NCBI GenBank assembly: GCA_016871675.1
Contig: VHCN01000024.1
Span: 1-42,998, forward strand
Direction of reading: 5' to 3'
From: Verrucomicrobiota bacterium
GTDB lineage: Bacteria; Verrucomicrobiota; Verrucomicrobiia; Limisphaerales; VHCN01
DNA length: 42,998 nucleotides
The translations under genes and the position numbers were made by a program. The notes below the pieces were generated by a model that did not search any database, was not told where the DNA came from, and saw nothing but the letters and a program-made list of their open reading frames with translations. This document shows, piece after piece, positions 31,544 to 33,550 of this stretch. Each line of letters begins with the position of its first letter. The stretch's first letter is position 1.

Positions 31544-31576
31544 ATGGATAACCTTCAACTGAAGAGGGCGTCTTGA
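31544..31576 (+). other. Ten-codon upstream ORF overlapping the infC start
   Basis: ATG 31544 encodes MDNLQLKRAS. Its TGA (31574-31576) overlaps the infC TTG start codon at 31573 (TTGA). The AGAGGG within it also serves as the infC ribosome binding site. Possible leader peptide or reinitiation device. Confidence 0.4.
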
Positions 31577-32340
31577 GTCGCCCCTTCCCCTCCCGCGGTT
31601 CCTCGTCCGGCACTCCATTCATCAGGATCAACGGAAAGATTCGTGCCCGTGAAGTCCGCGTCATTGGCCCCGACGGCCATCAACTGGGCGTGATGAGCCT
31701 GAACGACGCGCTTGCCCAGGCGCGCCGGCACGGAGTGGACTTGGTCGAGATCGCTGCGACCGCGCAGCCGCCCGTTTGCAAGGTGGTGGACTTCGGCAAG
31801 TATCGCTACGAAATCGCCAAGAAGGAAAAGGAGTCCAAGAAGCATCACCACGCGGGCAAGGTGAAGGAAATCCAGCTCAGCGCGAACATCGACCCGCACG
31901 ACTTCGGCGTGAAGTTTTCCCATGCGGTGGATTTCCTTTGCGAGGACATGAAGGTGAAGCTCGCGCTGCGTTTTCGCGGGCGAGAGATGGCGCACACGGA
32001 ATTTGGCTTCCAGGTCGTGAACAAGTTCATCACCAACGCCGCGCCGTGGGCGCACCCCGACTCGACGCCGAAGCTTGTCGGCAAAAGCATCAATGTGATG
32101 TTGAGCCCGCATCCGCGGAACAAGCGGGCCAAGCACCCGGGCGAAGGCCAACCCAACCACGCGCCTGCGGCCCAGGCCGCCCCGGGAAGCGCCACCGTGG
32201 CTTCGGGTGACGTGGCGCCGTCGCCCAAATCCATGACAGTCGCGCCGAAACTCGCCGGGTTTTCGAACAACCCGTTTTCGGACATCGACCTCAGCCGGGT
32301 GGACAAGCGCGCCAAGCCGGGCGACGCTGCCGCAGCCTGA
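31573..32340 (+). CDS. infC: Translation initiation factor IF-3, TTG start
   Basis: A 255-residue IF-3. The N-domain has RINGKIRAREVRVIGPDG and GVDLVEIAATAQPPVCKVVD, the linker is lysine-rich, and the C-domain has KVKLALRFRGREMAHTEFG. The core ends near residue 187. A 68-residue Ala/Pro-rich extension follows, ending FSDIDLSRVDKRAKPGDAAA. The start must be TTG 31573 or a rarer codon: an in-frame TAA lies 24 nt upstream and no ATG or GTG lies between. AGAGGG at 31563-31568 is a good ribosome site. Rare infC start codons are the basis of IF-3 autoregulation in E. coli (AUU). No rpmI or rplT follows. Confidence 0.93.
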   Translation: MSRPFPSRGSSSGTPFIRINGKIRAREVRVIGPDGHQLGVMSLNDALAQARRHGVDLVEIAATAQPPVCKVVDFGKYRYEIAKKEKESKKHHHAGKVKEIQLSANIDPHDFGVKFSHAVDFLCEDMKVKLALRFRGREMAHTEFGFQVVNKFITNAAPWAHPDSTPKLVGKSINVMLSPHPRNKRAKHPGEGQPNHAPAAQAAPGSATVASGDVAPSPKSMTVAPKLAGFSNNPFSDIDLSRVDKRAKPGDAAAA

Positions 32341-32395: not shown

Positions 32396-33550
32396 ATGCC
32401 ACTGCTCGACGCCATCCTCGCCGCGAACCATCGGCTCGGCACGGACCACAAGGCGCCGCTGCTCGACACGCAGCAATCGCGCGACTCACTCCCGCTTGCG
32501 GCGCTGACGTGCATCGACGCGCGGCTCAACCACCTGTTCCCGGACGTGCTGGGAATCCCCGAGTCAGAGTTCATCTGGCTGCGCAACTCTGGCAACATCA
32601 TCTTCGGAACGACGAGCGCGATGATGCGTTCGCTCGCGCTCGCCTGCGCCATCAAGGGCGCGAGGGAGATTGCCGTCATCGGCCACACGGACTGCCTCGT
32701 GTGCAAGTCCACCGTGCTTTCGCTCACCGACCGTTTCAAGGCGCTTGGCGTCGAGCGCTCGAAGCTGCCGGACGACCTTGTCGATTTCTTCGGCCTCTTC
32801 GCCAGCGAGCGCCAGAATGTCATGAAGGCCTGCGATACCATTCGCAACAGCCCGTTGATTGGGCCAAAGATCCCGATCCACGGCCTGCTTGTGGACACCC
32901 ACACGGGACGGCTCGAGCGCATTGTCAACGGCTACGAGAGCTTGGTTGCCGTGGCCGCGCCGGTGCCTGCGGCCGATACAAACGCCCCGGTCGGATCAAC
33001 CGCCTCCGGACCCGCGGGCATGTCCGGGCTCGCACCGCTCACACCGATGCCAAGTTTTGAAATCGGCGCAATCAAGTTCCCCGAGTCAAAGATCGGCGAA
33101 CTCGCAGGAGACGTGCAGCGAACCTCGGTCGCGGCGAAGGAGCTGCTCACGGACCTGAAGCATCGCGAGTTCCGCCCCGCTTGGGAGTCCGCGAAGGCAC
33201 TCGCCGCCGAGGTCAAGGAGACGGTGCGCGACGCGCGCGAAGCCGCGAGCCAGGCACGCCAGACCGCGCGCGATTTGAAATCGATGTCGCCCGCCGAGCG
33301 CGTCGCGCTGCTTGCGCGCCGTGTCGACAGGGCGGTCCGCTATCGCGTCATCGGCGCCGACCAGAAGCAATACGGCCCGATCTCCGGCGCAAAGCTACTC
33401 GAGTGGCTTGCGGACGACCGCATCGGCGCCGACACGGCGATTCAGGTTGAAGGCACGAAGCTCTGGCAACGGCTCGGCCAGCTCGCGGAGTCCAGGACGT
33501 CCAAGCCTCCGCCAATCGGGGACACGGAACAACGGACGAAGCGGCAATGA
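32396..33550 (+). CDS. Beta-carbonic anhydrase-like domain fused to a GYF_2 domain
   Basis: A 384-residue protein. Residues 1-175 have the beta-carbonic anhydrase zinc site: Cys39-Asp41-Arg43 in LTCIDARLNHL, then His97 and Cys100 in AVIGHTDCLVC, with RNSGNIIF between. It should hydrate CO2 if active. A proline/alanine linker and a helical segment with a repeated Ala/Arg pattern (EVKETVRDAREAASQARQTA) follow. The C-terminus, about 325-370, is GYF_2-like: YRVIGADQKQYGPISGAKLL and then LADDRIGADTAIQVEGTKLW. GYF_2 domains are presumed to bind proline-rich peptides. There is no signal peptide. It lies 55 bp downstream of infC and may be cotranscribed. Confidence 0.85.
   Translation: MPLLDAILAANHRLGTDHKAPLLDTQQSRDSLPLAALTCIDARLNHLFPDVLGIPESEFIWLRNSGNIIFGTTSAMMRSLALACAIKGAREIAVIGHTDCLVCKSTVLSLTDRFKALGVERSKLPDDLVDFFGLFASERQNVMKACDTIRNSPLIGPKIPIHGLLVDTHTGRLERIVNGYESLVAVAAPVPAADTNAPVGSTASGPAGMSGLAPLTPMPSFEIGAIKFPESKIGELAGDVQRTSVAAKELLTDLKHREFRPAWESAKALAAEVKETVRDAREAASQARQTARDLKSMSPAERVALLARRVDRAVRYRVIGADQKQYGPISGAKLLEWLADDRIGADTAIQVEGTKLWQRLGQLAESRTSKPPPIGDTEQRTKRQ

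Follow-up and report, generated by a model that had tools for sequence, protein, structure and literature searches.

The window, by which we mean the whole 42,998-nucleotide stretch of DNA that was analysed, carries on its forward strand at 32396–33550 a single open reading frame of 384 codons plus stop with an ATG start, which we refer to as the CA-GYF gene. The N-terminal part of its product (residues 1–182; 32396–32941, + strand) was identified as a beta-carbonic anhydrase (CA) domain by Pfam (Pro_CA), phmmer, Foldseek and VIA-align, and a GYF_2-like domain (residues 321–365; 33356–33490, + strand) was found towards the C-terminus by Pfam, a six-frame search and an AlphaFold model. The preliminary description had claimed such a fusion, and it is real, as both domains were recovered from one 384-residue frame in the Pfam search and in the model. 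The gene upstream on the same strand, named from its sequence as that of initiation factor IF-3 (ORF; 31573–32340), ends ~50 nucleotides before the CA-GYF gene and has a long Ala/Pro-rich C-terminal extension.

The Pro_CA match extends over residues 36–108 (38.4 bits, E-value 2e-9; cut-off 25.7), and phmmer matched the CA domain to the Cab-type CA 1g5c at 3.4e-22. The structure comparisons, which cover residues 24–189 and so concern the CA part of the protein, gave 1g5c as the best superposition (VIA-align, Z 18.2, rmsd 2.1 over 153 residues); CS2 and COS hydrolases were also among the structural neighbours (Foldseek, VIA-align), the COS hydrolase with Z 14.5. In the AlphaFold model, which was built with a 49-sequence alignment, pLDDT over the CA domain is mostly 85–95. 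All five active-site residues named in the preliminary description proved to be where it had placed them, by position check and family alignment: the zinc ligand Cys39 and the Asp41-Arg43 dyad at 32510–32524, and the zinc ligands His97 and Cys100 at 32684–32698 (all + strand). Among the 102 family members collected, C39 and R43 are present in all 102, and D41, H97 and C100 each in 101. The protein thus has the Cys-His-Cys ligands (CxDxR ... HxxC), Asp-Arg dyad, fold and Pro_CA profile of a beta-class CA, from which we infer that it would hydrate CO2. The residue after the second zinc Cys is Gly in the aligned beta-CAs and Leu in the window protein (residue 101; 32696–32698); across the family it is Leu in 42 members, Gln in 39, Arg in nine, other residues in the rest, and Gly in none (0/102). 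As this Gly is replaced throughout the family, the activity or the substrate could differ from that of other CAs. The CA domain has a dN/dS of 0.11–0.23.

Beyond the CA domain lies a linker (residues ~190–235) predicted to be disordered, which includes a conserved motif, FEIGAIKFPESKIGE (33056–33100, + strand; family consensus from the alignment xxIGEMKFPETKIGE; pLDDT ~50). Nearly all of the 102 family members have a short IGEMKFPETKIGE-like motif at this place (I233 in 98/102 and G234 in 101/102) despite the divergence of the linker around it. The model then shows a long helical segment at residues 240–309 (33113–33322, + strand), so that the Ala/Arg-rich helical linker of the preliminary description holds for this segment and gives way to predicted disorder at ~190–235. 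A match of the helical linker to Rv2743c/PspM (Pfam/NCBIfam) was far under the cut-off and was rejected; low-complexity Ala/Arg helices often yield weak profile matches of this kind. The protein ends in a tail (residues 369–384; 33500–33547, + strand) that contains PPPI and, by alignment, is a reduced version of the proline-rich/basic family tail.

The GYF_2-like domain is a borderline match by score. In the window protein it reached 24.5 bits (E-value 2.3e-5), 1.3 under the curated cut-off of 25.8, and the identical stretch scored 28.3 bits, above the cut-off, in the genome-wide six-frame search; two relatives also reached the cut-off (L074 with 27.6 and L077 with 26.0) and most scored below it. 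AlphaFold places a separate C-terminal domain at ~311–368 with pLDDT ~95. Seven pairs of relatives have a dN/dS of 0–0.12 for the GYF segment, and comparing the window protein with L073, its nearest relative, gives 0.36. Given the homologous segments in 27/102 members, the confidence of the model and these ratios, the segment is not a chance match, and the domain is under constraint. When the GYF segment was compared with PDB sequences, nothing beyond short matches to repeat proteins was returned. The motif of the eukaryotic-type GYF domain (PF02213) is GP[YF]xxxx[MV]xxWxxx[GN]YF (PMC12034629); the window segment, GPISGAKLLEWLADDRI, retains its GP and W and fails the motif elsewhere, with F replaced by I, M/V by L and GYF by DRI. 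The motif Trp is retained in 27/27 GYF-containing members, but two aromatic motif positions are lost in the window protein (GPI..., DRI), which weakens the case for proline binding, and such binding by this domain appears doubtful. As a separate observation, the six-frame search found nine GYF_2 matches in the window's 3.6 Mb genome and none in 14 well-known control genomes, and many relatives have runs of neighbouring GYF_2 ORFs. One GYF-like segment elsewhere in the window's genome (L164; G000:C2:14237-14371, − strand), VDDVVYGPVDLPTLVEWIADERVLADT, has the Trp as in CA-GYF.

The CA domain is common to all 102 distinct family proteins, 27 with the GYF-like domain and 75 without. The family is one of Verrucomicrobiota, with most of its members in the Limisphaerales. 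Orthologues were identified in 44 of 97 Limisphaerales genomes, and further loci came from a scan of named genomes, mostly Verrucomicrobiota, many of them Limisphaerales or Pedosphaera. The CA-GYF combination, with its 27 members, is no singleton, and within the genomes searched it belongs to a single clade; the nearest relative of the window protein is the GYF-containing L073, which is 64% identical to it and comes from a Lake Baikal Pedosphaera sp. In a phylogeny built from the CA domain only, the presence of GYF changes nine times, at least three of these changes being forced by well-supported branches; the domain has thus been gained and/or lost repeatedly, the counts giving no direction. 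Most family members end in a short proline-rich/basic tail: those without GYF usually terminate in a proline-rich stretch, e.g., PPKIPLPPPIRP, followed by basic residues, and those with GYF often have this tail in reduced form. A strict version of the tail motif occurs in 6/27 GYF-containing versus 55/75 GYF-lacking members (Fisher p 6e-6), a difference that comes down to three phylogenetically independent comparisons on the tree and is not significant there. We also considered whether the proline tail might fold back onto the GYF domain of its own chain; in the model of L075, a relative with both elements, the tail was predicted with low confidence (pLDDT ~43–52) and no contact is supported, and this idea was rejected. 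Separately, the searches returned beta-CA matches within frames of 800–900 residues (G068:C255:26065, G082:C53:10392 and G036:C13:20067), possibly transporter-CA fusions.

Similarity clustering of the genes around the family loci revealed two recurrent neighbours on the CA strand, proteins of ~500 and ~195 residues encoded just upstream (41 loci). The larger is a flotillin (Band_7 6e-34 and Flot 3.6e-8, both over the cut-off) and the smaller is weakly NfeD-like (E-values 0.0015 and 2e-4, below the cut-off), the arrangement of a flotillin (SPFH2)-NfeD2 operon; the remaining entries of the neighbour table, which lie on the other strand or overlap these genes, look like shadow frames. A flotillin gene lies upstream of the CA gene on the same strand and within 3.5 kb in 78/102 family loci, and the NfeD-like membrane-protein gene usually precedes it. 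As several of the unlinked loci are on short contigs or near contig ends, this linkage is if anything underestimated. The spacing between the flotillin and CA genes is ≤100 bp in 18, ≤400 bp in 39 and >400 bp in 31 of the 70 loci measured, and because of the latter a single transcript is not assured. Same-strand flotillin was found at 16/27 loci with GYF and 62/75 without; a tie between GYF presence and loss of flotillin linkage was considered and set aside, being weak and unsupported on the tree. We likewise rejected the notion that GYF binds prolines at the C-terminus of the flotillin, as flotillin tails have no consistent proline motif.

The CA and the flotillin are also inherited together. 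Of the 97 genomes of the order, 39 have both, five the CA only, seven the flotillin only and 46 neither (Fisher p 1.6e-14, kinship ignored); for genomes at least 90% complete the corresponding counts are 25, 0, 6 and 33 (Fisher p 1.8e-12, again ignoring kinship), all five CA-only genomes being under 90% complete. Sampling across the phylum gave three CA-bearing genomes among 387 and three with the flotillin among 288, and these were the identical three: the window's genome and two from another family of the same class. The latter two were the only genomes outside the order with either gene, and in each both genes were present and adjacent. Flotillin without the CA occurs, and the CA without flotillin is absent from good genomes, the pattern expected of a dependent partner.

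The window's own genome departs from this gene order, as the usual flotillin neighbour is absent beside its CA gene; another contig of the same genome (C32) carries the flotillin gene together with the NfeD-like one. This separation is probably recent in the window lineage, because the nearest relative, L073, keeps the operon, with flotillin 67 bp upstream of the CA and NfeD further up. The genome also encodes a second, canonical beta-CA (C15:49827-50282, E-value 3e-52), and the CA-GYF protein need not be its housekeeping enzyme as a consequence.

Considering the observed domain content, catalytic residues, linker motif, gene order of the relatives and co-occurrence with flotillin, we believe the protein to be, with reasonable probability, a flotillin-microdomain-associated beta-CA tethered by its C-terminal modules. 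A cytoplasmic, zinc-dependent beta-class CA would interconvert CO2 and bicarbonate, and its C-terminal extension would tether it to a membrane platform formed by the co-inherited flotillin (SPFH) and its NfeD-like partner; the CA may physically contact either of these. The invariant linker motif would be the best candidate for a universal dock, although the tail could also serve as a docking site, and both are predicted to be disordered. GYF cannot account for all of the tethering because 75/102 relatives are without it, usually having a proline-rich tail; the GYF domain and/or the proline-rich basic tail may instead be interchangeable extra adaptors. The preliminary description had suggested that the GYF domain could localise CO2 hydration to a proline-rich protein or a membrane complex; the latter agrees with the conserved NfeD/flotillin/CA gene order and the co-occurrence, and the loss of motif aromatics speaks against the former.

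An ordinary soluble housekeeping beta-CA, its adjacency to flotillin reflecting shared regulation only and its GYF domain and tail being dispensable, would fit the absence of GYF from most of the family and the unlinked gene in the window's genome, and the family CA can indeed be the sole beta-CA, as it is the only Pro_CA match in 18 of the 44 CA-bearing genomes (a count that leaves out G023, where the single match is another CA). We nevertheless regard this as unlikely, since the window's genome has its second beta-CA, the linker motif is kept in nearly all members while the linker around it diverges, and every CA-bearing genome that is at least 90% complete also has the flotillin. The replacement of the HxxC-G glycine in 102/102 members and the presence of CS2 and COS hydrolases among the structural neighbours raise instead the prospect of a beta-CA fold with other chemistry, such as a COS/CS2-type hydrolase, or of a bicarbonate/CO2-sensing subunit of a flotillin complex; the zinc ligands and the Asp-Arg dyad are intact, however, and the Cab-type CA is the closest structure by a clear margin (Z 18.2 against 14.5), which makes this quite improbable.

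The opposed distributions of GYF and the strict tail motif, together with the canonical Trp in every GYF-containing member, might also suggest that the enzyme polymerises, the proline tail of each CA being bound by a GYF domain that belongs to a second CA or to some other GYF protein. We give this very little credence, as the opposition reduces to three independent pairs on the tree without significance, the L075 model supports no docking, two GYF motif aromatic positions are lost, and the mutual exclusion of GYF and tail within one protein speaks against their use in cis. Returning to the flotillin-associated CA, we more tentatively speculate that it is the dedicated third component of a flotillin platform, forming a membrane-microdomain module for CO2/bicarbonate (or local pH) that the conserved disordered motif would anchor, with the GYF domain or the proline-rich tail as swappable adaptors. 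The position of the gene beside flotillin genes in the relatives suggests that CO2/bicarbonate chemistry is tethered to membrane patches in these bacteria. What bacterial flotillins do, and for which clients, is poorly defined, and a conserved enzyme that is co-inherited with a flotillin and encoded next to it offers a specific, testable candidate client with a biochemical readout (CO2, HCO3- or pH at the membrane). The CA-GYF family is also one of a small number of openings into what GYF_2-like domains do in bacteria.

Among known systems, the window CA resembles the Cab-type beta-CA of Methanobacterium thermoautotrophicum (PDB 1g5c) in fold, ligands and dyad, with 33% identity, but differs in its extra C-terminal extension of ~200 residues, in the Leu for Gly after the zinc Cys and in the operon with flotillin found in its relatives. 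Its GYF domain shares with bacterial GYF_2 (PF14237) and eukaryotic, CD2BP2-type GYF domains the GP....W core spacing, a Pfam match and a compact modelled domain, and departs from them in the Ile for the GP[YF] aromatic, the Asp-Arg-Ile triplet and the borderline Pfam score. DAB2 (DabA2-DabB2; PMC13144422) also has a beta-CA-like protein at the membrane, a location that for the window family we infer from its genes; DabB2, however, is a proton-conducting transmembrane subunit, whereas the neighbours here are flotillin and NfeD, and, in contrast to DAB2, the window-family CA keeps its dyad. A loose parallel is the modulation of the bicarbonate exchanger AE1 by the red-cell SPFH protein stomatin (PMC5383999). 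In the open-licence literature we found no paper on a CA with GYF, as the preliminary description had supposed, or on one with a bacterial flotillin, although such an absence is not proof, and the word 'carbonic' does not appear in a survey of SPFH operons in prokaryotes (PMC2636767). The SPFH2-NfeD2 operons it describes (flotillin/YuaG with YuaF/YqiJ) have a small NfeD-like gene followed by a flotillin gene, as here, but in the Limisphaerales-type loci a beta-CA gene comes next; the components are of known kinds, and the CA-GYF combination and the flotillin-CA operon appear to be a new variation on them.
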